Under the pieces are notes generated by a model, which searched no databases, was not told the origin of the DNA, and saw nothing but the letters and a program-made list of their open reading frames with translations. A stretch of DNA of 64,000 nt from positions 1 through 64,000 of the forward strand of contig JAPDJT010000001.1 of the NCBI GenBank assembly GCA_029258955.1, given 5' to 3'. This document shows, piece after piece, positions 10,028 through 58,671 of the stretch. Numbering within the stretch: position 1 is the stretch's first letter; the number at the start of each line of letters is the position of its first letter. The translations under genes were made by a program, and so were the position numbers. The stretch is from Thermoplasmatota archaeon. GTDB lineage: Archaea > Thermoplasmatota > E2 > UBA202 > JdFR-43.

Positions 10028-10070
10028 TATTTCGGATATTTTTCCTATTAATTAATTTTATTGATTTATA

Positions 10071-10135
10071 AATGAAAAGACATTATCATCGGCTCATTGC
10101 AAAGAAGATTTTCATAGTGATTCCATTTCATTATT
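10071..10135 (-). repeat. Dispersed intergenic inverted repeat, copy 1
   Basis: Reads AATGAAAAGACATTATCATC, then GGCTCATTGC and CCATTTCATTATTT. It is a degenerate copy in reverse orientation of the ~75-bp family best seen at 38112-38190. Confidence 0.4.
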
Positions 10136-10230
10136 TAATTGCAACTCAAAGAAAAATGGGATCTATGATCAATATTCTTTTCTAGATTTTTCAATTTGCC
10201 CAAAACAAATGTTTTTCGATTGTTAAACAT

Positions 10231-10254: not shown

Positions 10255-12372
10255 ATGAACATGAAAAAGTTAATCTGCATTATGTTGGTAGCTTTTTTAT
10301 TTATGCCAGCTTTTTCAGCTGAAGAAAAAGCAGTAAAAATGCAATTTATCTACCACTTTGAGAACATAAAATTGGAAAAGAATGATAAAGGCTATATTGT
10401 AAAAATTAATGGTTGTCAGCAACATGAAATAAATGGCTATATAATCCCTGTAAAGCCATTGCACATTTTAATACCATATGGAAAAGATGTTAAAGAAATA
10501 AGAGTTAGTGGTGATGAACATTTCTTAGGATTTTACAATTTAAAGAGGGAGAAGCCATTATACATTGGCAATACAAAGCTTCTGCCAAAAATTGGAGAAG
10601 CAATTAAAAAGAAATATGAATATGTTGGTGTATATGGGCTTAGGGGGTACAAAATTTTAGTTATGAAGTTGATTCCTGTGGAATACAAAAATGGGATGCT
10701 ATTTTACTATGATAAAATAAAAGTTGAAATTGAATTAAAGGATGGAAAAGTAAATGGTTTATATAGAGGGCTTGAAAAAGATAAAGAATGGGTGAAGAGA
10801 TATGTAGATAACAAATGGGTTCTTGATACATATCCAGTAAAAAGCTATGATAGAAAATATGATTATTTGATAATTACAGCTGAAAAATTTGTAGATGCAT
10901 TTAAACCATTTGCAGAATACAAAGAATCAAAGCAGATAAAAACTAAAATTGTAAGTGTGGAGGAGATTATCAGCAATTCTTCTTTCTGGAATTCCACAGA
11001 TTTGTTTAATGATACACAAGCCAAAATAAGAAGATTTATAAGATGGGCTTACTTAAATTGGGGTATAGATTATGTTTTACTTGGAGGAGATGGGGATGTA
11101 ATGAATAAAAGTAGCAACATAATTCCTCCTCGCTATCTATATGCAACTTGCGTTGGCTTGCCATTAGGCGAGACTCAAGAAGTTTTAGAAGGATATATTC
11201 CTTCTGATGTATATTATGCTTGTTTAGATGGGAATTTCAATACAGATATGGATAATAAATGGGGAGAAAATGCAACTGGAAATGATATTAGCGATGAAGA
11301 TGAGGCAGATTTGTTTGCAGAAGTATGGGTGGGAAGGGCATGTGTTGATAAAGTAAAAGAAATTGAAAATTTCATTCATAAAACAGAGGCTTATGAGCAA
11401 ACAAATGATAGCTATATAATTCAAATTCTTTTGCTCGGGGAATATTTAGGTTTTGGAGGAGAAGCAGAATGGGGAGGAAATCATAAAGATAGAATAAAGC
11501 CTTACATACCTTCAATTTACAACATAACAACATTATATGATAGAGAAAATCGTTGGGAAAAAGAGGAACTTATAGCTTTGTTGAATAAAGGAATCCATGT
11601 AGTGAATCATGATGGTCATGGATGGACAACATATGCATTGAAAATGGTAAATAGTGATTTAAAAGCATTGAAGAATACAAAATATTTCTTCTTATATTCC
11701 CAAACTTGTTTAGCTGGTTCTTTTGACAATTGGTATCCTGAAGATAGATACTATGAAGATGATTGTTTTGCTGAGCATTTGGCATTCGATGAACATGGTG
11801 CATTTGCCTGCATAATGAATTCCAGATATGGGCTTGGAAGAGAGAATAGTACTGATTCTCCAGGACAAAGATATGATGAATCTTTCTTTAAAGCTGTTTT
11901 CCAAGAAAATATAAGAGAGCTTGGCAGAGCAAATCATTATTCTAAGGAGGATAATGTTTGGAGAATAAATGAAAATGGAATGAGATGGGTATATTATGAA
12001 ACAAATCTATTTGGGGATCCACAAGTAGCTTTAAAAGAACCTTATGAAAAAGTAAATATAAGTATTGATTTGCAAAAGCCGTTGAATGGAATTTATATAC
12101 TCGATTATGGTCCAATTTTTCCGACTTTATCATCAACAATAATTATTGGAGATATTACAATAAAAGCAAATGTAACAACAGAACCAGCAGGAAAATTACA
12201 AAAAGTGAATTTGTTCATTGACGATATATTGAAGGCTTCTTTTGAAACAGGAAACATAGAGTGGAAATGGGAAGAAAAAGCTTTTGGAGAATATAAAATA
12301 TGCATAGAAGCAATTGCAAGAAATGGAAAAGTAGAAAGGGCGGAGAAGGCTGTTTATATCTTTAACTTTTAG
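10255..12372 (+). CDS. Secreted C25 (gingipain-like) cysteine peptidase
   Basis: 705 residues with a signal peptide ([20 protein letters not shown], cut near FSA). The peptidase C25 core spans about residues 200-580, starting [20 protein letters not shown]. The catalytic dyad is visible as His455 in NHDGHGW and Cys485 in [10 protein letters not shown]. The last ~100 residues form a beta-rich Ig-like module ([16 protein letters not shown]). The family comprises extracellular endopeptidases, so degradation of environmental protein is the likely role. It lacks a recognisable C-terminal anchor. It overlaps the convergent slipin gene by 11 bp. One of three C25 genes in the window and the most divergent of them. 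Confidence 0.85.
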
Positions 12373-13129: not shown

Positions 13130-13184
13130 AATGATATAACCTGAGGCAATATAAATAAATAATTGACGGAGGAATTCTTGAAAA

Positions 13185-13256
13185 AAATGAAAGAGCTTTG
13201 TTATAGTAATTTTTCTTCATGCAACAACAGCAATGGCAACCATTTCTTCGTTTATT
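13185..13256 (+). repeat. Dispersed intergenic inverted repeat, copy 2
   Basis: Begins AAATGAAAGAGCTTTGTTAT and ends AATGGCAACCATTTCTTCG then TTTATT. It lies in the gap between the slipin and the 13301 membrane protein, with its arms complementary to each other as in the other copies. Confidence 0.6.
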
Positions 13257-13300
13257 CAAAAATTATTTTATTCATAGACTATTTTTAAAGAGACAATTAA

Positions 13301-13904: not shown

Positions 13905-15149
13905 ATGAATGTTATGAAAAAAATCGTTGCAATAGGAACTATATTTATTCTTGTATTTTCGATGTTTCCCACAGGAAGTAATAAAATTACTTTAAACAAT
14001 GGTGGAAGAACATTATATGTTGGTGGAGATGGCCCAAACAACTACACAAAAATACAGGATGCCATCAATGATGCTATGGATGGAAATACAATTTTTGTAT
14101 ATGATGATTCTTCACCATATTATGAAAATTTGGTTATTGATAAATCTATTAAACTCATAGGAGAAAACAAGGAAACAACTATAATAGATGGAGAGAAAAA
14201 GGGAAATGTTATTTATGTATGTGGAAATGGAGTGCACATAAGCAATTTCACTATTCAGCATGGTGGGGGAGGATGGCCTGGTGCAGGCATATTTATCTAC
14301 TCAAGTGATAATGTAATTTCTAATAATATCATAAGAAATAACGGAAAGGGCATTATCATAATGGATTTGGTATCTAAGCACAATAAGATATGTAAAAATA
14401 CAGTTGTTAATAATACAGAGATGGGGATAGATCTCTTTAATGCAGATGGTAATATTATTAAGGAAAATAGTGTGCTATGCAATGGTGGCGATGGGATAAC
14501 AATTGCTGATGCTGGATCCAACACAATTGAAAAGAATGTCTTATCAGATACAATTTATCTGGGAAGAGCATACAGAAATATTGTAGAAGATAATTCTTTT
14601 AGCGAAGGAGGGATAAGAATTTGGCATTCCTCTGGCAATAAACTTCTAAATAATACGATAAATGGGAAACCAATTGTGTATTTGGAAGGTAAAACAGATG
14701 TGGAAATAGATGAAGGTGCACAAGTTATACTTGTAAAGTGCAAAAGAATTACAATAAAAAATTTGAATATCTCAAACACATGCTGTGCCATCCATCTTTC
14801 ATTTTGCAATGAATGCACTGTTGAAGAGAATATTCTGGAAAGAAATTCCTACGGTATCGAAATGTATTCGTGCAAAAGAAATCTCCTAAGGAGAAATACT
14901 CTCAAGAATAATGGGTTAGGTATATGGCTCGAGATGGACTCTAACATGAATAAAATATTCGATAACAATTTTATAGAAAACAATATACATGCAACTTTTT
15001 CCATCTCTCTCCACAATTTGTGGCTTCGCAACTACTGGGATAACTGGAAATTGCCTTTGCCAAAACCCGTTTTTGGTTTCGTTTATGGTTTTCCATGGAT
15101 TCAACTTGACTGGATGCCTCGTTTATCCCCATATGGAGGTGAAGAATGA
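13905..15149 (+). CDS. Secreted parallel beta-helix protein, array gene 1
   Basis: 414 residues with a signal peptide (MNVMKKIVAIGTIFILVFSM). After the leader comes the array's header motif TLYVGGDGPNNYTKIQDAIN, followed by SSPYYENLVIDKSIKLIGEN, a NosD/pectin-lyase-like first coil. Many Asn-rich parallel beta-helix (PbH1) coils follow, for example NVISNNIIRNNGKGIIIM. It closes with the signature LRNYWDNWKLPLPKP and, near the end, IQLDWMPRLSPYGGEE, shared with genes 3 and 4. Likely extracellular carbohydrate-binding, carbohydrate-cleaving or structural; no catalytic residues could be assigned. The stop overlaps the next start (ATGA). Confidence 0.8.
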   Translation: MNVMKKIVAIGTIFILVFSMFPTGSNKITLNNGGRTLYVGGDGPNNYTKIQDAINDAMDGNTIFVYDDSSPYYENLVIDKSIKLIGENKETTIIDGEKKGNVIYVCGNGVHISNFTIQHGGGGWPGAGIFIYSSDNVISNNIIRNNGKGIIIMDLVSKHNKICKNTVVNNTEMGIDLFNADGNIIKENSVLCNGGDGITIADAGSNTIEKNVLSDTIYLGRAYRNIVEDNSFSEGGIRIWHSSGNKLLNNTINGKPIVYLEGKTDVEIDEGAQVILVKCKRITIKNLNISNTCCAIHLSFCNECTVEENILERNSYGIEMYSCKRNLLRRNTLKNNGLGIWLEMDSNMNKIFDNNFIENNIHATFSISLHNLWLRNYWDNWKLPLPKPVFGFVYGFPWIQLDWMPRLSPYGGEE

Positions 15150-16291
15150 AAAAAGTAGTCATTGTTGGGATTGTTTATATGCTTTTTATACCAGCAATGG
15201 CAATTAATGAAAATATAAATCATGCATCCTTTATCACTGATGGAAAAACGTTGTATGTAGGTGGCTCTGGTCCAAATAACTACACAAAAATACAAGATGC
15301 AATTGATGATGCAAGCGATGGAGATACCATAATGGTGTATCCTGGAGCTTACAAAGAAAACATAGTTGTTCATAAAAGTTTAACAATAAGGGGAGCAAAG
15401 AAAAACGAAAAGCCAGTAATTGAGCCAGAAAATGAAAACAGGAGTGTTGTATATATAATTGCAGAAAAATGCAGGATAGAAAACTTTGTAATTAGAGGAA
15501 GAATATATGTGATCTCCTATGGACATTCAATAATAAACAATATATTTGAAGGAGATGGGGGAGGAATAACCTCTCCAAATACTGTAGAAGATACAATAGC
15601 CCATAATATTTTCAGAGGGAATGGGTACAGTGGTATAGATTTAGATGATTCTTATATAATGAAAATTTATAACAATACTTTCTCGGGCGATTATTACACG
15701 GGAATATATTTATCTGATTGTGGCAATCTGAATATTTTCAACAATACTTTCCATTCGATGAGCAAAGGAATATTTGGAGGAAGTGTATATGAACTCAAGA
15801 TATATTCAAATGAATTTTATAACTTAAAAGAAGATGGTATTCATATTTCTCCTTCAGCTTCCTACAATGAAATATTTCAGAACAAGATTTTTGAATGTAA
15901 ATGCGGAATATCTTTTGCGGGAAGAGGAGATAACATTTTTCATAATGAAATCTATAACAATTCTCTTGGTATATGGATTAATGGTGGGGGAGTGAGAGTG
16001 TTTGAGAATAATATCACTAATAATAAAGTTGGAATTAATTTATACAATGTTTATCCATTTTATGGAGGAGCTACACTCATATTTCATAACAATTTTATTG
16101 CCAATGAAAAGCAGGCAACCTTTGTAGATGCTTATTTGAATATATGGTTTAACAATTATTGGAGCGATTGGCATGTTCCTCTTCTAAAAATAATTTTCGG
16201 CACACGTTGCACTCTTTTGCTTATTTGTTATCCATGGATTCAATTTGATTTAATGCCTTCATTAAAACCGATAGAGTGGTGGAGAAAATGA
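15146..16291 (+). CDS. Secreted parallel beta-helix protein, array gene 2
   Basis: 381 residues. A signal peptide (MKKVVIVGIVYMLFIPAMAI) precedes the header TLYVGGSGPNNYTKIQDAID and ASDGDTIMVYPGAYKENIVV, then PbH1 coils (NIFNNTFHSMSKGIFGG, FHNEIYNNSLGIWING). The C-terminal signature is a variant: NNYWSDWHVPLLKIIFG and, near the end, PWIQFDLMPSLKP. Translation is coupled to gene 1 by ATGA overlap, and the 3' end overlaps gene 3 by 16 bp. Function unknown; cell-surface or secreted by its leader. Confidence 0.78.
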   Translation: MKKVVIVGIVYMLFIPAMAINENINHASFITDGKTLYVGGSGPNNYTKIQDAIDDASDGDTIMVYPGAYKENIVVHKSLTIRGAKKNEKPVIEPENENRSVVYIIAEKCRIENFVIRGRIYVISYGHSIINNIFEGDGGGITSPNTVEDTIAHNIFRGNGYSGIDLDDSYIMKIYNNTFSGDYYTGIYLSDCGNLNIFNNTFHSMSKGIFGGSVYELKIYSNEFYNLKEDGIHISPSASYNEIFQNKIFECKCGISFAGRGDNIFHNEIYNNSLGIWINGGGVRVFENNITNNKVGINLYNVYPFYGGATLIFHNNFIANEKQATFVDAYLNIWFNNYWSDWHVPLLKIIFGTRCTLLLICYPWIQFDLMPSLKPIEWWRK

Positions 16292-17307
16292 ATAGAATGG
16301 TTATAATCTTGGTAATGCTATTAATTTTGATACCAATTGATAATAATGCAATTGATTCCATCGTGGAAGAAAAAAGCGATGTTCATCACGGAAAAACACT
16401 ATATGTAGGTGGCTCTGGCCCAAACAACTACACAAAAATACAAGATGCTATTGACAATGCTAATGATGGAGATACTGTATTTGTTTACTGCGGAATTTAT
16501 CATGAAAACATTTTTGTAAATAAAAGCATAGATATTGTTGGCGAATACAGATACAGAACTATTATAATTGCAGCACACGATAGAGATATAATAAATGTTA
16601 CTGCTTGTAATGTAAATATATCTAGATTTACAATAGTGGGCGAGGGCATTAAATGGCCCTGTGCTGGAATAAAACTATTTAAAACCAATGATGTTAGTAT
16701 ATCATATTGTGATATTTATTTTTCTCCGATCGGTGTCTATGTGTATGAATCCAATATGAACAGAGTAGAAAATTGCGACATTGGCAAAAATTCATGTGGT
16801 ATAATGCTCAATTTTTCAGAAGAAAATTCATTTGTTGGTTGTGAAATTCATCATAGTCTTGAAGAAGGGTGTTATTTGTCGGCATCCAACAGAAATATAC
16901 TGAGTGATTGCAAGATCTATGAAAATGATATGGGAGTTAGTATCGTGGGCGTAAAAAACATTTTGTCCCGGTGTGATATAACCGATAATAAGATAGGAAT
17001 TAATATTATAGGATATTCAAATCAAGTCAAGAAATGCAATATTTGTAGAAATTTATGGGGCGTTGAGTTACTTGTGGCCTTTAAAAACATAATTGCAAAT
17101 AATAATTTCTGCAAAAACGAGTTAAATGCTTTCTTTGCAAACGCTGCCTTTAATATATGGCTCCGCAATTACTGGAGTAATTGGAGGCTTCCTTTACCAA
17201 AGCCTATATTTGGTTTTCTTGTATGGTCTTTTATGGAAATTGCCATTCCGTGGCTAAACTTTGACTGGATGCCTCGTGTAATGCCGTATGGAGATGAGGA
17301 AAGATGA
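16276..17307 (+). CDS. Secreted parallel beta-helix protein, array gene 3
   Basis: 343 residues. The leader MNRMVIILVMLLILIPI becomes the true N-terminus if the internal ATG at 16288 is used, which also sits as ATGA on the gene 2 stop; 16276 is the longest frame. The header TLYVGGSGPNNYTKIQDAID is followed by DGDTVFVYCGIYHENIFVNK, then PbH1 coils unusually rich in Cys (CDIYFS, CDIGKNSCGIM, CKIYEND). The C-terminal signature LRNYWSNWRLPLPKPIFGF is clear. Paralogue of its neighbours. Confidence 0.78.
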   Translation: MVEKMNRMVIILVMLLILIPIDNNAIDSIVEEKSDVHHGKTLYVGGSGPNNYTKIQDAIDNANDGDTVFVYCGIYHENIFVNKSIDIVGEYRYRTIIIAAHDRDIINVTACNVNISRFTIVGEGIKWPCAGIKLFKTNDVSISYCDIYFSPIGVYVYESNMNRVENCDIGKNSCGIMLNFSEENSFVGCEIHHSLEEGCYLSASNRNILSDCKIYENDMGVSIVGVKNILSRCDITDNKIGINIIGYSNQVKKCNICRNLWGVELLVAFKNIIANNNFCKNELNAFFANAAFNIWLRNYWSNWRLPLPKPIFGFLVWSFMEIAIPWLNFDWMPRVMPYGDEER

Positions 17308-18059
17308 GCAGAGTTGCAGCAGTTTTAATTATTATTTTGCTAATCGCGCCCGCAATTGCCAGTGAAAGAGTAAATTATGCTATCATGAAAAATGGGAATG
17401 GAAGAACATTATATGTTGGTGGAAGCGGCCCAGGAAATTATAGCAAGATACAGGATGCTATAGAGAATGCAAGCAATGGAGATACAATTTTTGTTTATTC
17501 TGGAACATATTATGAGAATGTTGTTATAAATAAGAGCATAGATTTAATTGGAGAAAATGCAAAGACAACAATAATAGATGGAATGAGGAGGAACAAAACA
17601 GTTTTCATTCTCATGAGCAATGTTTTGGTGTGTAATTTTACAATAAGGAATGGAACTGTTGGAATTGGTAATTCTAGGTTTTCATGCCATCTGGAAAAGA
17701 TAACAATAAAGAATAACATAGTGATCGATAATATTCAAGAAGGGATTTCTTTATGGCGATGCAATCATTGCATCATATATGGAAATACCGTTGTCAATGA
17801 CACATGGGGAATATGTTTATATGGCTCCTATTTTAATAGAATAATCAACAACAACCTTATGAAAAATGAAGAGAATGCCCATGTATATTATTGGGGAAAT
17901 TGGCCCTTGTTCTGGACAAACCGATTCCTAAGAAATTATTGGGATAACTGGCGCATTCCTATTCCAAAACCAATAGTAGCATTCTTTTATCCTATTTATC
18001 CATTAATTCAATTTGACTGGATTCCTCGTGTAATGCCATATGGAGGTGAGGAAAGATGA
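17304..18059 (+). CDS. Short secreted beta-helix protein, array gene 4
   Basis: 251 residues, the shortest member: a signal peptide, the header TLYVGGSGPGNYSKIQDAIE, SGTYYENVVINKSIDLIGEN, only a few PbH1 coils (CIIYGNTVVNDTWGICLYG), then the signature LRNYWDNWRIPIPKPIVAFF and IQFDWIPRVMPYGGEER. It shows the minimal architecture of the family (leader, header, short helix, C-terminal cap). It overlaps both neighbours by four bases (ATGA), so the whole block should be translated as a coupled unit. Confidence 0.78.
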   Translation: MSRVAAVLIIILLIAPAIASERVNYAIMKNGNGRTLYVGGSGPGNYSKIQDAIENASNGDTIFVYSGTYYENVVINKSIDLIGENAKTTIIDGMRRNKTVFILMSNVLVCNFTIRNGTVGIGNSRFSCHLEKITIKNNIVIDNIQEGISLWRCNHCIIYGNTVVNDTWGICLYGSYFNRIINNNLMKNEENAHVYYWGNWPLFWTNRFLRNYWDNWRIPIPKPIVAFFYPIYPLIQFDWIPRVMPYGGEER

Positions 18060-19453
18060 GAAAAATCGCAATAATAGTATCTGTCCTCCTTCTGATGTCA
18101 TTACAATCATTTTCATTGTCTTCTTCTAAAGTAAACAACTATACGCCCCACCATCCAATTTATATAAATGGAAATGATGATTTTACTCCAGAGAATGGTG
18201 TTGTAGGAGGAAATGGAACAAAAGAAAATCCTTATATTATCGAAGGATGGGAAATAAACGCTTCTGGAGAATGGCATGGAATTACTATTAAAAATACCAC
18301 AGCATATGCTGTCATCAGGAAATGTTATATTCACCACGCAGGATGTGCTATGCTCATTAACAATGCAAGCAATATAATTATTCAAAATTTATTTACAGAA
18401 TTTAACAATTTTGGCATTTCCATTATAATTTCAAAAAATGTCTACGTAGAGAATTGTTATACTGAATCCATTTACTTGAATACAGATGAAAATTGTTCTA
18501 TAGAAAATTGCCATATTCTACATTCTATCCAGATAATAGAAAGCGTGAAAAGCAACATAATAAATAATTTTATTGGAGAAGGTTTGCTAATTAAAGGATT
18601 AAAGCAAGAATATTTCTTCCACAATATTTTAAATAATACTGCCATCAATGGCTCCATTCTTTACTATGTTAATAAAAGCAATGTTAAGGTAAAAGAAAAT
18701 GCTTCCCAGATATTTATAATAGGGTGTAAAAACTTTGAGATAAGCATGAATTCCTCAAATGTATTGGTGGCAGTTGAAATGGCATATTCTTCTAACATTT
18801 CAATAATTAACTCAGGTTTTTATGGAAAAATGGCTTGGGCAAGCGTTTTTGGCATTAATTCTTCCAACATTTTTATATCCAATTCAAAGTTTAAAAATAA
18901 TGGCTGCTCAATTTTTTTCCATGCCATATCTAATTTTGAAATAAAAAATTCTTATTTTGCATTTTATGAAAGTGGAGTGGTTGCAGAATTAAGCAAAAAT
19001 GGAATTGTTAGAGACTGCGCATTTGAAAATGGAGAATTTGGCTTGGAATTTTATTTATGCAGAAATATTGCCATAAAGCATTGCAATATCCATGACAATG
19101 AATGCGTTGGAGCAATGGCTCAAGGAATAATTGGCTTTACCATATACAAATGCAATGTTTATAATAATGGCGATGATTGTGGAGGAGGAATAGGAGTAAG
19201 CCAAGGAATTTTTGTAAGAATAAATAGTAACAATATATTCAATAACTCATACTATGGCATATACGCAGATTTTTCAATTGTAAATGCCATACATAATTAT
19301 TATGGCTCATTTCTTGGACCAAGTAGAAATAGGACGCACCCATTAAGAGGAGACATAGTATATGGATTTGCCTCTGTAATAATAACATTTCCATGGAAAG
19401 TTTTTCCTGTTTTTACAAAAGCAGAATACTGCTTACAGAGGGTGAAAAAATGA
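18056..19453 (+). CDS. Secreted beta-helix protein, array gene 5 (different header)
   Basis: 465 residues with a signal peptide (MRKIAIIVSVLLLMSLQSFS). Instead of the TLYVGG header it has HHPIYINGNDDFTPENGVVG and GTKENPYIIEGWEI, the opening found in many archaeal NosD-like surface proteins, followed by many PbH1 coils (KHCNIHDNECVGAMAQGIIG). The end is a plain beta-helix close (NYYGSFLGPSRNRTHPLRGD), lacking the LRNYWDNW cap of genes 1, 3 and 4. It is coupled to both neighbours by ATGA overlaps. Function unknown. Confidence 0.78.
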   Translation: MRKIAIIVSVLLLMSLQSFSLSSSKVNNYTPHHPIYINGNDDFTPENGVVGGNGTKENPYIIEGWEINASGEWHGITIKNTTAYAVIRKCYIHHAGCAMLINNASNIIIQNLFTEFNNFGISIIISKNVYVENCYTESIYLNTDENCSIENCHILHSIQIIESVKSNIINNFIGEGLLIKGLKQEYFFHNILNNTAINGSILYYVNKSNVKVKENASQIFIIGCKNFEISMNSSNVLVAVEMAYSSNISIINSGFYGKMAWASVFGINSSNIFISNSKFKNNGCSIFFHAISNFEIKNSYFAFYESGVVAELSKNGIVRDCAFENGEFGLEFYLCRNIAIKHCNIHDNECVGAMAQGIIGFTIYKCNVYNNGDDCGGGIGVSQGIFVRINSNNIFNNSYYGIYADFSIVNAIHNYYGSFLGPSRNRTHPLRGDIVYGFASVIITFPWKVFPVFTKAEYCLQRVKK

Positions 19454-23567: not shown

Positions 23568-23575
23568 TGTTTGTC

Positions 23576-23646
23576 AAATGAAATAACCCTGCTATTGGCT
23601 ATTATAGCATGAACAAATTTACCATGGCAACATTTCTTTCATTTTT
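23576..23646 (-). repeat. Dispersed intergenic inverted repeat, copy 3
   Basis: On the minus strand it reads AAAATGAAAGAAATGTTGCC, then ATGGTAAATTTG and ATAGCCAATAGC, closely matching the family consensus in reverse orientation. Confidence 0.65.
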
Positions 23647-23691
23647 ACTGAACTCCTATAATCGGATCGTCGGACAAATGAAAAATAAAAA

Positions 23692-23746
23692 AAATGTTGT
23701 AATTGGTTATTATAACAACAGGGAGAATTACTATAACAACATTCTT
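23692..23746. repeat. Second imperfect palindrome in the same gap
   Basis: AATGTTGTAATTGG on the left pairs with AATTACTATAACAACATT on the right around an AT-rich centre. It shares the TGTTG/CAACA core of the dispersed repeat family and may be a divergent member. Confidence 0.35.
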
Positions 23747-23808
23747 TTTTATTTTGTTTCCCAAATTTCAATAATCAAAAAGCTTTTTCATTGTGCAAAT
23801 ATTACCTC

Positions 23809-24771: not shown

Positions 24772-24795
24772 TTTCCCACTTCATTTTAACTTTTG

Positions 24796-24862
24796 AAAAA
24801 ATGGCTGTCATTGACAACATTGCATGAAAATGAGTTGCCATAGCATCATCTCTTTCATTATT
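24796..24862 (-). repeat. Dispersed intergenic inverted repeat, copy 4
   Basis: Reads AAAAAATGGCTGTCATTGAC, TTGCATGAAAATGA, and ends CTCTTTCATTATT; degenerate, reverse orientation. Confidence 0.45.
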
Positions 24863-24906
24863 CTTTTTCATCGCAAAAGATTTAATTGCAAAAAGCTTAC
24901 ACACTC

Positions 24907-26016: not shown

Positions 26017-26054
26017 TTCTCCCTTTTTCTTTTTATAAAAAGGCATTGGAGACT

Positions 26055-26125
26055 AAATGAAATGAGATGTTGCCATGATAAATTTCCATGCTAGCAGTAA
26101 CAAATGGAATTATTTCTTTCAATTT
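26055..26125 (+). repeat. Dispersed intergenic inverted repeat, copy 5
   Basis: AAATGAAATGAGATGTTGCC followed by ATGATAAATTTCCATG, ending AATTATTTCTTTCAATTT. The left arm is identical over about 20 bases to the minus strand of copy 6. Confidence 0.6.
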
Positions 26126-27763: not shown

Positions 27764-27840
27764 CTGTCAAATTTTTTGGACAAAAGTAAATAAAATTTAA
27801 CTATTTAAAATTTGCTTTTACATGGATTGTTAAATAATTG

Positions 27841-27903
27841 AAAAAGGATATCATCGGTTTTATTACATGGAAAATTTATGGCAACATCTCATTTCATTAA
27901 TTT
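27841..27903 (-). repeat. Dispersed intergenic inverted repeat, copy 6
   Basis: Plus-strand AAGGATATCATCGG, then ACATGGAAAATTTATGGCAA and CATCTCATTTCATTAATTT. Its minus strand nearly repeats copy 5. Confidence 0.65.
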
Positions 27904-28014
27904 CTCGAAATGTTATTATAGCAAATTTCTCTTTCCAATAAATACATTAAAGCTCTTCATTTATTCTAATTCTATCTCCATAGTAAAAGTTATATCGTGC
28001 TTTTCATTAGAAAA

Positions 28015-29946
28015 ATGGGGAGGAAAATGGAGAAAATATTGCCTGTAATATTGGCTATTGGGTTGATTTTAGGTAGTGTTACAGTAGGCAATGAAAAATT
28101 CGCAACAAACGCAATGAAAAAATCGGAGATAGAGGCAATAAAGCTTGGAGACATTGAAATAAAAGAAAATGAGGAATACGTCAATGTGATCATGGACAAT
28201 GCATATTACTTGCATGAAACTGGCAAACCAATGCTACCATACTATGTAAAAGTATATTATTTCCCATTAGGTAGCAAAGTTAGCATAGAATGTGAGCCAA
28301 AGAACATTGAAACAATGAAAATAGACAAAGAAGTAGTTGTTGCTGAGCCTCCAAAACCAAAGGGAATGAAAGAAATAAAAATTGAGAAAATTCAGCCATT
28401 GAGGGAAACTTATCCAGCTACATGGTATAGCTACCATCTTGGCGGGGGGCTTGTTAACGGAAAAAGAGTTACAATATTAGTTTTGCATTTATATCCAGTA
28501 AGATATAATGCCGATAAAAAAGAGCTAATGATTGCAAATGAATTTGATGTAAAGATAAATTACATAGAACCAAAGAAATTTATTGTGAGTAATGATGAAT
28601 ATGATTTAGTGATTATATGTCCGGAAGAATGGAGAGAAGCGATACAACCATTGGTAGAGCATAAAGAAAATCATGGAATAAGAACTTATGTTGAAACTGT
28701 AGAAAATATATATGCAACATATGAAGGAAGGGATGGTGCAGAAAAAGTGAAATATTTCATTAAAGACATGATTGAGCAATATGGAATAAAATACGTTTTG
28801 CTCATAGGTGGCAAGAAATCATATTTTGTTGGCAACTGGGGACATGATGGACCATTGCATCACGATGATAGCTTGTGGTATTGCCCAGTAAGATATGTAG
28901 CATTAGATGACATGGCTGAACATGGATATATTAGCGACTTGTATTTTGCTGACATATACGATGCAAACGGAAACTTTTCAACATGGGATACAAACAACAA
29001 TGGAATATATGGAGAGTGGAGGCTTCAAGGGAAGGATATTTTAGATTTATATCCGGATGTTTATGTAGGTAGGCTTGCTTGCAGGAGCTTAAAAGAACTC
29101 CAAAATGTCATGGATAAAATAATTAGCTATGAAAGTAGAAGTGTAAGAAATGAAGATTGGTTCAAAAGAATGCTTCTTGTAGGAGGAGATACTTTTGATG
29201 ATGCACAAAATATTTGTGAGGGAGAGGTATCAACAGACTGGTTCTATGAGCATTATATGGCTGATAAATTTGAAAAAGTTAGCTTATATGTTTCAGATGG
29301 AACTCTTACATTTGGCTATACGGAGCCAAACAAAATTGCAGGAAGATTTGCATGGATAAATGTAATAAAAACATTTAGTGAGGGATGTGGAATGGCTGTT
29401 TTCGATGGACACGGAAGTCCAACAGCATGGGCAACCCATTTCCAAGGATATGCAAGTCATAGTGACCCATGGGTAAATGGATTAATGACATATAACATGG
29501 ATTTGCTTAGCAATAATGACATGCTTCCCGTAGTTGTTATAGGGGGCTGTCATAACAGCGAATTCAATATAAGTTTATTTGATGATTTCAAAAATCCATG
29601 GACATATCAGCCAACATACGAATGCTTCAGCTGGCATTTGGTGAAAATGGCAAAGAAAGGAGCTATTGCAACAATAGGTAATACAGGTTTAGGTTATGGA
29701 GCAGAGGGAGGAGATAGAAATGGAAATGGAATTCCAGATTGCGTTGAATACAATGGAGGGTACATTGAAGACAGATTTTACTATGCATATGGAAAACTTG
29801 GTAAAGATGTACTTGGTGAGACATGGGGAACAGCAATAACAGAGTTCTTAAATGTATATCCAGGAATGAAAGATAGAATAGACTGTAAGACAGTTGAAGA
29901 GTGGGTATTGTTGGGGGACCCAACTTTAAAGATAGGAGGTTACTAA
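28015..29946 (+). CDS. Secreted C25 (gingipain-like) cysteine peptidase
   Basis: About 643 residues with a signal peptide (MGRKMEKILPVILAIGLILG). An N-terminal propeptide/beta region leads to the C25 core from NDEYDLVIICPEEWREAIQP. The catalytic pair is visible as His466 in VFDGHGSPTAWATH and Cys512 in VVIGGCHNSEF. It shares WDTNNNGIYGEW and the C-terminal GDPTLKIGGY with the peptidase at 38239, so the two are close paralogues. A TATA-like AGTTATATC at ~27988 lies 24-27 nt before ATG 28015, which fits the leaderless pattern; ATG 28027 preceded by GGGGAGG is an alternative. No anchor was seen, so it is probably released. Confidence 0.87.
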   Translation: MGRKMEKILPVILAIGLILGSVTVGNEKFATNAMKKSEIEAIKLGDIEIKENEEYVNVIMDNAYYLHETGKPMLPYYVKVYYFPLGSKVSIECEPKNIETMKIDKEVVVAEPPKPKGMKEIKIEKIQPLRETYPATWYSYHLGGGLVNGKRVTILVLHLYPVRYNADKKELMIANEFDVKINYIEPKKFIVSNDEYDLVIICPEEWREAIQPLVEHKENHGIRTYVETVENIYATYEGRDGAEKVKYFIKDMIEQYGIKYVLLIGGKKSYFVGNWGHDGPLHHDDSLWYCPVRYVALDDMAEHGYISDLYFADIYDANGNFSTWDTNNNGIYGEWRLQGKDILDLYPDVYVGRLACRSLKELQNVMDKIISYESRSVRNEDWFKRMLLVGGDTFDDAQNICEGEVSTDWFYEHYMADKFEKVSLYVSDGTLTFGYTEPNKIAGRFAWINVIKTFSEGCGMAVFDGHGSPTAWATHFQGYASHSDPWVNGLMTYNMDLLSNNDMLPVVVIGGCHNSEFNISLFDDFKNPWTYQPTYECFSWHLVKMAKKGAIATIGNTGLGYGAEGGDRNGNGIPDCVEYNGGYIEDRFYYAYGKLGKDVLGETWGTAITEFLNVYPGMKDRIDCKTVEEWVLLGDPTLKIGGY

Positions 29947-33286: not shown

Positions 33287-34394
33287 AACTTATCGAAAAG
33301 CATGAAAAACATAGGAGGAGAGGCATTAACTTAATAGCATCTGAAAATGTTCTTTCCAGAGAGGCTTTGAAAGCTTTGCATTGTGACTTGGCAGGAAGAT
33401 ATGGTAGTAATTGGTATGGTGGTAGTAGATATACAGAGGAAATTAAAGAAAAGGTTGAAGAGTTGGCGAAAAAGCTTTTCAACGCAAAATATGCTTTCAT
33501 AACTCCTTTATCTGGAAATATATGTGATTTAGCTGTAATTTTTTCTTTTACTAAACCATTCGATGAAATCGCTGGAATAGCCAAAGAAGATGGAGGATAC
33601 CCCTTAGGGTATGAAAAGTTTGATAGAAGGTTTTATCCATTGCCAGTAAAAGATTATGTTATAAATGCTGAAGAGCTTGAAAAAATAAAGAAAGATTTTC
33701 CTTTAGTCCTTATTGCATCTTCCATCATCCTTTTTCCTCATCCATTAGAAGCTATAGCAAAAAAATTCAGACATAATATAGTATATGATGCCTCACATGT
33801 TCTTGGCTTAATAGCAGGAAAGGAATTCCAAAATCCATTGAAGTATTGCCAAGCAATGATTGGCTCTACTCATAAATCTTTTCCTGACCACAAGGAGGAA
33901 TAATATTGACAAATGATAGCTGGGTGGCAGAAAAGCTCTCAAAATATTTGCTCTTTGATTATGACAAAGGCATTGGCTTAGTTGATAATCCTCATTTAAA
34001 TAGGATAGCTTCCTTAGGCATAGTTATGGAAGAAATGCTAAAAAATGGTAGAGAATATGCAAAGCAAATAATAAAGAATGCAAAATATCTGGCTAAATGT
34101 TTGGATGAATTAGGAGTGCCAATAAAATTTGCTGAAAAAGGATATACAGAAAGCCATCAAATTTTATTAAATTTAGGTGAAGAAACGTTCAATTTCTTTA
34201 AAAAGCTTGAGGAAAATCATATTTTTATTGATTGCATTGGAAGAATTGGAACAGCAGAAGTTACACATATTGGAGTGGGCGAAAAAGAAATGGAAGAAAT
34301 TGCTCACATGATAGCAGATGTATATAAAGGAAAAAATGTAAAAGATAAAGCAATAAAAATAGCAAAAGAATTTTATGAAAAATTCTATGAGTAA
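33268..34394 (+). pseudogene. glyA: Serine hydroxymethyltransferase, broken by a one-base frameshift
   Basis: Two frames together give a near-complete SHMT of about 375 residues. It is a PLP enzyme interconverting serine and glycine with a folate-type C1 carrier. The first frame (33268-33903) has INLIASENVLSREALKAL, RYGSNWYGGSRYTEEI and the PLP-lysine motif GSTHKSFP. There GAC replaces the expected GGA CCA of the Gly-Pro-Gln-Gly-Gly loop: one G appears lost at about 33886. The other frame then continues PQGGIILTNDSWVAEKLSKY to the normal end. No other damage is visible, so a sequencing or assembly error is as likely as true inactivation. Confidence 0.85.
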
Positions 34395-34463
34395 AAATGA
34401 AGTGGTTGTCATGTCATTGGTTTATTGCGTAGAAGAGATTCACTTGGCAATATTCTTTCCATT
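34393..34463 (-). repeat. Dispersed intergenic inverted repeat, copy 7
   Basis: AAAAATGAAGTGGTTGTCAT, then TATTGCG, and ends TGGCAATATTCTTTCCATT; reverse orientation. Confidence 0.5.
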
Positions 34464-34537
34464 CTGATTTTTGACGAGCTTCTGTGGAGTCCCGAAAAAT
34501 ATATAAATAGAATTGATATACTGTGTTAGGTGGTAGC

Positions 34538-37644: not shown

Positions 37645-37719
37645 TGATGAAGAAGTGGTCGTCATTGACTATTATTGCTTGAAAGAAAATTACCTAACAG
37701 CACCTCTTTCTTATTTTAT
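37645..37719 (-). repeat. Dispersed intergenic inverted repeat, copy 8
   Basis: GATGAAGAAGTGGTCGTCAT, then TATTGCTTGAAAG, ending CCTCTTTCTTATTTTAT; reverse orientation, degenerate. Confidence 0.45.
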
Positions 37720-37735
37720 GCTCATTAGGTTGTCA

Positions 37736-37810
37736 AAAATAATGATGCAAGATATTACCATAGCAAAGTTTTTCATCCACTGAGCCAATGATAACCATTT
37801 TATTCATTTA
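37736..37810 (+). repeat. Dispersed intergenic inverted repeat, copy 9
   Basis: Left part ATATTACCATAGCAAAG, then TTTTCATCCACTGAGCCAAT, ending GATAACCATTTTATTCATTT. Confidence 0.5.
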
Positions 37811-37829
37811 GCTCGCTCATTAGGTTGAT

Positions 37830-38019
37830 GACATGTTAAAGCCTTCCATATAAGCATGAAGGAGGCGGTAAAATGTTGTATGCAGGTATGGATGTACATA
37901 AGAAAAGGAAATAAGAGAATTCTTTTATGGACTGAAGAATGTAAAAGTAGCTATAGAAGCATCTACAAACTATAGCTACATTGTAGATGCTTTAGCAAAG
38001 AAGGCTATGAAGTTTTAGT
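37830..38019 (+). mobile_element. IS110-family transposase remnant, copy A
   Basis: After the shared flank GACATGTTAAAGCCTTCCAT an SD (GGAGG) and ATG at 37873 open MLYAGMDVHKKRK and then a stop. The MDVHKK segment is the first DEDD-type motif of IS110 transposases. In another frame follows EFFYGLKNVKVAIEAST plus NYSYIVDAL, the next conserved segment with the catalytic Glu. The rest of the transposase is absent. A nearly identical copy with the same internal break lies at 45683, so this truncated form itself appears to have been copied. Confidence 0.65.
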
Positions 38020-38111
38020 CATAATGTGGCTTTGCCACGAATAGGTATATATCATAAGGCATAAAAATTGAAATTGCTATAAAACAGGCGGGCTTTACAT
38101 AGGTGTCGAAA

Positions 38112-38190
38112 AATAAATGAAATGGAATGTTGTCACAGTAAAATTTCATCCCATGCAATAGGCTAATGACAACCTTTTCTTTCATTTATT
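38112..38190 (+). repeat. Dispersed intergenic inverted repeat, copy 10 (best copy)
   Basis: Left arm AATAAATGAAATGGAATGTT plus GTCAC, right arm AATGACAACCTTTTCTTTCA plus TTTATT. The arms are complementary over about 24 of 26 positions with a ~28-bp centre containing AAATTTCAT and ATGCAATAGG. It should fold into a long hairpin in RNA or single-stranded DNA. Confidence 0.72.
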
Positions 38191-38208
38191 CATGCTCACT
38201 TATTCCAA

Positions 38209-38238: not shown

Positions 38239-39801
38239 ATGAAATGGATTTCATTTCTAATAATATTTATACTTATTGCTCCAATTTCTGGGATTGAATT
38301 TCAAAATATAAAGGAAGGGAAGGAAGAATTAATGGAAAAGGGTTGCTATATTTTTCCATTAGGAAGTAAAATAAAAGTTTATGGAAATGGAAGTATAGAA
38401 ATAAAGCCAGAATGGATAGGGAAGGGACCAGAGATAAATATAGAAGTACCTCCTTATCATATAGGAGTCGGAATAAAAAATGGAAAAAGGGTTTTATTTT
38501 TGAATTTATACACTAATGCTAAAGTAGAAATTGAAAAGGAGAAAGAAAAAATTGTAAAAAAGGATTCCTATGATTTTCTTATAATTTGTCCAGATGAATT
38601 TGTCAAGCCTCTTCAGCCATTAAAATTGCATAAGGAAATGCATGGAATAAAAACAATTATCGTTAATTTAGATGAAATTTACAATGGCAAATATTTTGAT
38701 GCACAAGGAAGAGACGAGCCAGAGAAGATAAAATATTTCATAAAGAATGCAATTGAGCAATGGGGAATAAAATATGTTTTGCTTGTTGGAGATATAAAAA
38801 GATTGCCAACAAGATATGTAATGTATGCTTGGCGCTCTGGATTCAAAATATACAAGGAATTTCTTCCTACAGATTTGTATTATGCCGATATATATAGATA
38901 TGAAAATGGCAAAGTAGTTTTTTCTTCATGGGATACAAATAACAATGGAATATATGGAGAAAGATACTGGGATATAGATAAGGAAGAAGATGTGATAGAC
39001 TTATATCCAGATGTTTATCTTGGTAGATTAGCTTGTGAGAATAAAAGGGTTGTAAAACATGTTGTCAATAAAATAATTGAATATGAAAATAATGCCCATG
39101 GAAAGAGATGGTTTAAAAGGCTTATACTTGTAGGAGGAGATACTTTTCCAAATTGGGGTGTTGTAGAAGGGGAATTTATGAATGAGCTGGTAGCTCAACT
39201 TTTAAATGATTTTGATGCCTACAAAATCTGGTATTCTTTAGGCAATTTAAATACTATAGAAATTCAGAAAGCTTTAGAAATGGGGGCTGGCTTTCTTTAT
39301 TATTCTGGACATGGATTTCCATATGGATGGGCAACTCATGCAATAAATGGAAGCGATGAAGAGTGGGTCGGAAGATATTATACTCCTTATATTGCTGGAT
39401 TGTTTAATGGAAAAAGATTACCAATAATTTTCTTCGATGCATGCTTGACAGCAAAACTCGATTTTAATTCTTCAGATTTGAGAAATGATGGTATTCCTAT
39501 TAAATTCAATGCTTCTTTTCCATGCTTCGCCTGGTATTTTATTCGCCATCCATATGGAGGAGCAATTGCCACCATAGGAGCAACAAGAGTAGCTTATACA
39601 GGAGTATATGAAGATGGTCCTCACTGGGGAGCAGGATATTTGGCATATAAATTCTTTGAATCTTACAAGGAAAGCGATATTTTAGGAAATGTATTTGTGA
39701 TGGCTCAGGAAAAATATATAAGCAAGCTGTGGGATGAATGGACAATACAAGAATTCATTTTGCTTGGCGACCCAACACTTAAAATAGGAGGTTATGCCTA
39801 A
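38239..39801 (+). CDS. Secreted C25 (gingipain-like) cysteine peptidase, compact
   Basis: 520 residues with a short signal peptide (MKWISFLIIFILIAPISGIE). The propeptide region is shorter than in the 28015 paralogue. The C25 core begins KDSYDFLIICPDEFVKPLQP; His358 lies in YYSGHGFPYGWATH and Cys402 in FFDACLTAKL. It shares SSWDTNNNGIYGER and the end GDPTLKIGGYA with that paralogue. No C-terminal anchor or Ig domain. The start is fixed by a TATA box 25 nt upstream. It borders the repeat/IS hot spot. Confidence 0.87.
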   Translation: MKWISFLIIFILIAPISGIEFQNIKEGKEELMEKGCYIFPLGSKIKVYGNGSIEIKPEWIGKGPEINIEVPPYHIGVGIKNGKRVLFLNLYTNAKVEIEKEKEKIVKKDSYDFLIICPDEFVKPLQPLKLHKEMHGIKTIIVNLDEIYNGKYFDAQGRDEPEKIKYFIKNAIEQWGIKYVLLVGDIKRLPTRYVMYAWRSGFKIYKEFLPTDLYYADIYRYENGKVVFSSWDTNNNGIYGERYWDIDKEEDVIDLYPDVYLGRLACENKRVVKHVVNKIIEYENNAHGKRWFKRLILVGGDTFPNWGVVEGEFMNELVAQLLNDFDAYKIWYSLGNLNTIEIQKALEMGAGFLYYSGHGFPYGWATHAINGSDEEWVGRYYTPYIAGLFNGKRLPIIFFDACLTAKLDFNSSDLRNDGIPIKFNASFPCFAWYFIRHPYGGAIATIGATRVAYTGVYEDGPHWGAGYLAYKFFESYKESDILGNVFVMAQEKYISKLWDEWTIQEFILLGDPTLKIGGYA

Positions 39802-45548: not shown

Positions 45549-45581
45549 TATATTTAAATTAAATTTTCTTACGGATCATTG

Positions 45582-45640
45582 AATAAAGAAGATATCACAT
45601 CGTTATGGAAAGATGCTATAAAACAATCCATTTCATTTAA
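45582..45640 (-). repeat. Dispersed intergenic inverted repeat, copy 11
   Basis: AATAAAGAAGATATCACATC, then TATGG and a terminal CAATCCATTTCATTTAA; degenerate, reverse orientation. A right-end half copy (ACAACACCCTTCATTTCATT) lies at 45896-45917, beyond the IS remnant. Confidence 0.38.
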
Positions 45641-45682
45641 TTTTCTCATGTGCTTTGCTTTATCACATTTTAGGGTTTAATT

Positions 45683-45890
45683 GACATGTTAAAGCCTTCC
45701 ATATAAGCATGAAGGAGGCGGTAAAATGTTGTATGCAGGTATGGATGTACATAAGAAAAGGAAATAAGAGAATTCTTTTATGGACTAAAGAATGTAAAAG
45801 TAGCTATTGAAGCATCTACAAACTATAGCTACATTGTAGATGCTTGCAAAGAAGGCTATGAAGTTTTAGTGACAGATTTAGCAAGAGGAA
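45683..45890 (+). mobile_element. IS110-family transposase remnant, copy B
   Basis: Nearly identical to 37830-38019 over ~185 bases, including the same MLYAGMDVHKKRK-stop and the same internal junction. Here the second frame runs further: NVKVAIEASTNYSYIVDAC, KEGYEVLVTDLARGNL. The identity of the deletion in both copies indicates a common deleted ancestor rather than independent decay. Confidence 0.65.
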
Positions 45891-45945
45891 ATTTAACAAC
45901 ACCCTTCATTTCATTTATTTTTACAACCTCTCAACTTTAGCAAAA

Positions 45946-58575: not shown

Positions 58576-58598
58576 ATTGCTGATTTGCTAAGATCGAA

Positions 58599-58671
58599 AA
58601 TAAATGAAAAGGGTGTTATTATGGTAACTCTATGCAATATGCCGATGACAACCATTTCTTTCAATATATTT
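58599..58671 (+). repeat. Dispersed intergenic inverted repeat, copy 12
   Basis: AATAAATGAAAAGGGTGTTA, TATGGTAAC, ATGCAATATG and CCGATGACAACCATTTCTTT. It contains the cleanest version of the right-hand core CGATGACAACCATTTCTTTC. Confidence 0.65.

Follow-up and report, generated by a model that had tools for sequence, protein, structure and literature searches.

The MITEs reviewed in prokaryotes include Correia, QMITE2 and Chunjie, and archaeal ones occur in Sulfolobus, Halobacterium and Haloquadratum (PMC10969869). The intergenic palindrome ERIC has been counted at 711 copies in Photorhabdus, as cited in the same paper (PMC10969869). Such repeats can themselves be invaded: IS1111 inserts in the QMITE2 of Coxiella (PMC10969869), and IS110-family elements insert in REPs (PMC1525189). 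The repeat family analysed in the present study is almost certainly an IS5-type MITE of an uncultured Thermoplasmata archaeon, non-coding and about 101 bp long. This reading follows from terminal inverted repeats (TIRs) matching an IS5-type transposon of the same genome, from target-site duplications (TSDs) and from young intact copies. The preliminary description had proposed a MITE-like non-autonomous element, and this proposal was borne out, since the analysis revealed TIRs, TSDs, subfamilies, an occupied/empty pair of sites and a candidate autonomous partner. With hundreds of decaying copies, a young subfamily and the ends of a parent, the birth and decay of a MITE can be traced in an uncultured archaeal lineage.

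The full element runs from GGGTTTGTCGAAAAATAAATGAAA to TTTCATTTATTCGACGAACCC (consensus GGGTTTGTCGAAAAATAAATGAAATGGGATGTTGYCATAGTAAATTCTCTTCCATGCAATAATAGCCAATGACAACCATTTCTTTCATTTATTCGACGAACCC), and sequence conservation ends just beyond GGG…CCC. Its TIRs are GGGTTTGTCGAA... and ...TTCGACGAACCC, the former also written GGGTTTGTCGAA(AAATAAATGAAA). The unit of about 75 bp bounded by AAATGAAATG...CTTTCATTTATT, as first delimited, is the correct core of this element, but the outer GGGTTTGTCGAA/TTCGACGAACCC had been overlooked. Young copies measure 100-102 bp and contain no ORF. Old and young copies are mixed, with a mean identity to the consensus of 76%, and for 32 of 170 copies the closest other copy is at least 90% identical.

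The window, that is, the whole 64-kb stretch of DNA analysed, belongs to contig C3 in a MAG of 1.71 Mb (94% complete, 7.3% contaminated). Related sequence is present at all 12 positions listed in the preliminary description, and leave-one-out nhmmer searches with a window profile recovered 11 of them (E 3e-12 to 2.4e-4); the reversed window gave no match below E 2. Two further copies bring the total to 14. The cores detected by both leave-one-out and profile searches lie at 13180-13259 (+), 23572-23646 (-), 24794-24867 (-), directly upstream of the FBP aldolase/phosphatase gene, 26048-26125 (+), 27831-27908 (-), 34394-34469 (-) and 37648-37710 (-); the core at 10065-10139 (-) was the one recovered at E 2.4e-4. 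The additional copy at 23680-23763 (-), found by profile search, is situated 34 bp from the copy at 23572-23646, and the other addition is a partial copy at 45877-45925 (-), also detected by profile searches. The copy at 45574-45647 (-) is heavily decayed: the leave-one-out search with the window profile gave E 8.5, and the genome-wide profile gave E 0.003 over 736 kb and 2.9e-4 over the window alone. At 58594-58666 (+), a copy is flanked by a 10-bp TSD, GATTTGCTAA.

The core at 37648-37710 opens a cluster of three copies. The second, at 37732-37811 (+), has the left end GGTTGTCAAAAA and the flanking direct repeat GCTCATTAGGTTG, and it is inserted beside the end of the third. That third copy, at 38105-38193 (+), is the one originally noted and the best-preserved of the window (E 1.7e-19); its left TIR survives as a stub, AGGTTGATG, at 37821-37830 (+), severed by an insertion of the IS110/IS1111 type. 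Among the genes of the window, three encode C25 (gingipain-type) peptidases (10255-12372, 27997-29946 and 38239-39801), and the region 13905-19453 holds NosD/right-handed beta-helix paralogues in tandem, whose starts share a repeated GG-GPNNYTKIQDAI and whose ends read LPxPKPxxGF...DWMPR.

Outside the window the family is abundant. The genome profile search returned 218 copies at E<=0.01, against none in the reversed control, over 736 kb taken as stretches that were selected in part for containing matches. A search with one 23-base arm, allowing at most 3 mismatches, gave 54 matches in the genome and none for the reversed pattern; a sequence-only model proposed at least 150 candidates. On contigs C2 and C3 and most of C4, covered nearly end to end, 74 copies occur in 327 kb, from which the whole-genome copy number is estimated at roughly 350-400. 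A single parasite of about 100 bp makes up roughly 2% of the genome and, by estimate, about 15% of its non-coding DNA. Contig C1 (genome G000, locus L085) is probably foreign, because no copy was found in the first 12 kb read or in the genome search, its tetranucleotide composition is outlying (0.222 vs 0.079, sd 0.023), it carries an intact IS110 of a different type, and its 131 kb of 1.71 Mb is consistent with the 7.3% contamination.

Among 40 relatives searched with the sequence-only model, clear copies were found only in G001 of the same genus (3) and in G004 (1 strong). An exact 22-mer of the MITE had no match in GTDB genome contigs, a set from which its own and near genomes are possibly absent. 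Clusters of short AATGAAA...CATGAG repeats with a weak profile match occur at L043 (genome G003) and L051 (G014), and are possibly these relatives' own MITE families.

The copies had been described as lying only between genes, which is nearly so: of 187 copies placed with a simple ORF caller, 163 are intergenic, 10 overlap an ORF partly, and 14 share more than half of their length with an ORF, mostly at ORF ends. Density per kilobase of remaining gap amounts to 2.75 in divergent, 2.6 in co-directional and 2.34 in convergent gaps, so that no preference for any gap type is seen and nothing points to placement as a terminator or promoter. In co-directional gaps the orientation of the element is slightly skewed (48 with vs 29 against).

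Evidence for mobility comes from the flanks. Direct repeats of at least 9 bp at the expected ends, the target-site duplications that the preliminary description suggested looking for, surround 27 of 153 copies, compared with 2.8 once left and right flanks were drawn from different copies; for at least 11 bp, the same flank-shuffling test gave 9 against 0.3. An earlier test that was not anchored to the ends had given 17 against 5.2. The TSDs span 9-11 bp, and most copies have no recognisable duplication, which is to be expected with a mean identity to the consensus of about 76%. A young subfamily comprises 16 near-identical matches, most with the intact ends GGGTCTGTCGAAAATTAAATG...ATTTGTTCAACAAACCC (also GGGTCTGTCGAAAATTAAATG…CTATTTGTTCAACAAACCC), and its TSDs are visible, e.g., CATTTTAATC, TTTTTAATT, TTCTTTTTTC and GAATGACTTGG. 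One repeated segment is filled with a MITE at L077 and L099 and empty at L065 and L092; the filled sites have TCTTATCCCAG-type repeats on either side, and the left TIR of both copies is eroded. In a comparison of synteny with G001, good alignment is confined to the FBP gene, and therefore this genome offers no orthologous empty sites. A second dispersed repeat, AACGCTTTCCTTCTAATGCCTCAAAGGAAAGCG...TTACAATCTGGAGGTAAGAATTTCTTGACAGT, lies at L073:18546-18645, with copies in L040, L065, L077, L081, L092 and L099, often beside IS or MITE remnants.

Multi-copy ISs located at contig ends, here called IS-A and IS-B, were traced from a partial DDE transposase with which contig C14 ends; the MAG contains no complete copy of either. 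The right ends of IS-B, ...ATTTATTCGACGAACCC (…GGATTTATTCGACGAACCC), were found at C39 and C28 and, with one mismatch, at C9, and their downstream flanks differ. This end is identical to the right end of the MITE over 17 of 17 bp. IS-A right ends (…TTTTTTCGACAACCTC) occur at the ends of four contigs, C28, C29, C11 and C30, and the IS-A left end, seen at C41, reads GAGGTTGTCGAAAAATTTCGTGAAATTT. The left flank at C41 and the right flank at C29 both carry the 9-bp GGTTGGAGG, which points to a single IS-A copy with a 9-bp duplication, the two contigs being joined by inference. A full-length relative in G013 encodes 329 aa and has the ends GGGTTTGTCGAAAAAATC and GGGGTTGTCGAAAAATTA; G002 contains a decayed full IS with TIRs GGGATTGTCGAAAAA and flanks GGTTAGTTTG/GGTTAGTTGG. 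The left ends of related ISs match the MITE over 16 bp. The IS transposase matches PF01609 with 34.9 bits, above the cut-off of 23, and NF033579 with E 1.5e-16 and 60.7 bits, below the NCBIfam IS5 cut-off of 140; from these profile matches it is assigned as IS5-like, of the DDE type. It had no match among plasmids or in the PDB, and the same transposase type is present in relatives named Thermoplasmata archaea. Two IS5-like loci found first with PF01609, L105 (TIR CTGCTGTGTTGCATAACT) and L106 (TIR TGTGCTTTGTGGTATAA), were rejected as the parent, as their ends differ. It is most likely that the MITE is mobilised in trans by the IS5-type transposase of the same genome, which would cut and insert it. 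A few active sources would give rise to new copies in bursts; the copies would persist in intergenic gaps because insertions into genes are lost, and would then drift as neutral sequence.

The insertion that severed the copy at 38105 belongs to a different element. A 164-bp duplicate at 37829 and 45682 is a remnant of the IS110/IS1111 type, with the subterminal sequences AAAGCCCGCC/GGCGGGCTTT, and PF01548 matches to a DEDD transposase were obtained on remnants of this type. The remnant at 37831-38103 (+) is internally deleted, lies inside the MITE terminal repeat and has the subterminal repeats AAAGCC...GGCGGGCTTT; the second, at 45684-45876 (+), is preceded by the TIR-like AGGGTTTAATTG, and over 164 nt it shares 99% identity with 37829-37992. 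Right ends matching GGCGGGCTTTACATAGG number 12 across the whole genome, and 11 of them continue directly into a MITE, which may lie in either orientation; nearly all of the junctions fall at one position in its terminal repeat. Left ends are preceded by TIR-like sequences, for example GGTTTGATG. Of the two copies of about 1.18 kb in G001 (L165, L167), one likewise abuts a MITE. Thus, this element inserts almost only into the MITE terminal repeat, an archaeal mobile element parasitising another mobile element. It is an evenly balanced question whether it acts as a guided hyperparasite, in which a putative guide RNA would read the TIR common to the MITE and its IS5-type parent, its loop pairing with GGGTTTGATG/TGTCGAA. 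Hundreds of harmless MITEs would then provide safe landing sites, and each landing would destroy the TIR of the MITE entered. The insertions form a natural target set for guide-RNA prediction.

The other role considered in the preliminary description was that of an extragenic palindrome that serves in mRNA processing, termination or chromatin binding. A functional palindrome selected at each site (REP/BIME-like, a terminator, an mRNA stabiliser or a protein-binding site) would agree with the intergenic location, with the close pairing of some copies, with the slight strand skew in co-directional gaps and with the consensus arms, which are able to pair over about 24 pairs. The statement that each copy could fold holds for this consensus, but single old copies often show no folding advantage over shuffled sequences (z -2.7 to -0.2). 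Across 236 aligned copies, compensatory changes of the arms are absent: standard pairs make up 0.787, against 0.790 expected if the arms were independent, and double changes in the stem number 96 against 101.6. This lack of covariation, named in advance as a refutation, refutes a maintained fold and leaves a mobile palindrome standing; the palindrome was therefore inherited from founders, not maintained copy by copy, and then drifts. RNAalifold found no structure in an early alignment, and an Rfam search gave no match. Together with the similar density across gap types, the missing covariation speaks against a role as terminator, RNA or chromatin site; convergent gaps are not enriched, and the TSDs and matching IS ends fit such a function poorly. 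The Y1 (RAYT) transposase, PF01797, had no match in the host genome, whereas control genomes gave matches. Selection at each site is therefore very improbable, and it should be noted that archaeal annotation can easily misread such MITE copies as regulatory palindromes, terminators or RNAs.

If the family is a MITE, its parent could be another IS, unassembled or extinct, which merely shares TIR bases with IS-A and IS-B. Similarity between the MITE interior and the IS 3' end beyond the TIR is not significant (P 0.11-0.54; HMM E ~0.002-0.003), so that the link rests on the ends and the duplication length, and the MAG, incomplete as it is, is broken at IS copies. The exact match at the IS-B right end, the 16 bp at the left ends of related ISs and the similar duplication lengths nevertheless make another parent rather unlikely. 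Spread mainly through segmental duplication or through the IS110/IS1111-type element, instead of the MITE's own ends, would explain why nearly all right ends of that element adjoin a MITE and why a few copies have long flanks in common. For most copies, however, the flanks are unique and no IS110-type end is present; the IS110-type insertions interrupt the TIR, duplications of about 9 bp agree with DDE transposition acting on the MITE itself, and young copies with TSDs and no IS110-type sequence beside them contradict such a route, which is extremely improbable.

The family can be compared with several known systems. Its candidate parent, a possible member of the IS5 family, IS903 group, has a DDE_Tnp_1 transposase as they do, here scoring below the NCBIfam IS5 cut-offs. 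The TIR of the MITE starts with GG(C/G)TTTGTTGAA, and a 9-bp duplication is seen in the MITE and in the one inferred IS-A copy. The TIR GGGTTTGTTGAATAAAT resembles the IS903 end GGCTTTGTTGAATAAATC, and the 9-bp duplication also resembles that of IS903; the plasmid match obtained for this comparison is unannotated. Like other prokaryotic MITEs, the element is short, non-coding, intergenic and multi-copy, with TIRs, TSDs and many decayed copies resembling extragenic palindromes; unlike them, it represents a sequence family that is new and comes from an uncultured Thermoplasmata lineage, and a literature search found no paper joining 'Thermoplasmata' with 'miniature inverted-repeat'. Enterobacterial ERICs are also intergenic imperfect palindromes of about 100-130 bp in hundreds of copies, but their sequence is unrelated, and the archaeal MITE has clear target duplications and IS ends; its density per kilobase, as inferred from copy number and genome size, would exceed that of ERIC in Photorhabdus. 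REP/RAYT systems share the dispersed intergenic palindromes, some of them paired, and the role of target for IS110-type insertion (PMC1525189), whereas the MITE is longer, has TSDs and DDE-type TIRs, and is found in a genome with no Y1 transposase. In Coxiella IS1111/QMITE2 and in IS110/REP, an IS110/IS1111-type element is likewise specific for the repeats of another element when it inserts; the elements concerned are different, and here the host is an archaeon and the target is a MITE TIR. The class of MITEs is well known, and the family described here is a new, unusually dense member with a likely parent and a second-level parasite.
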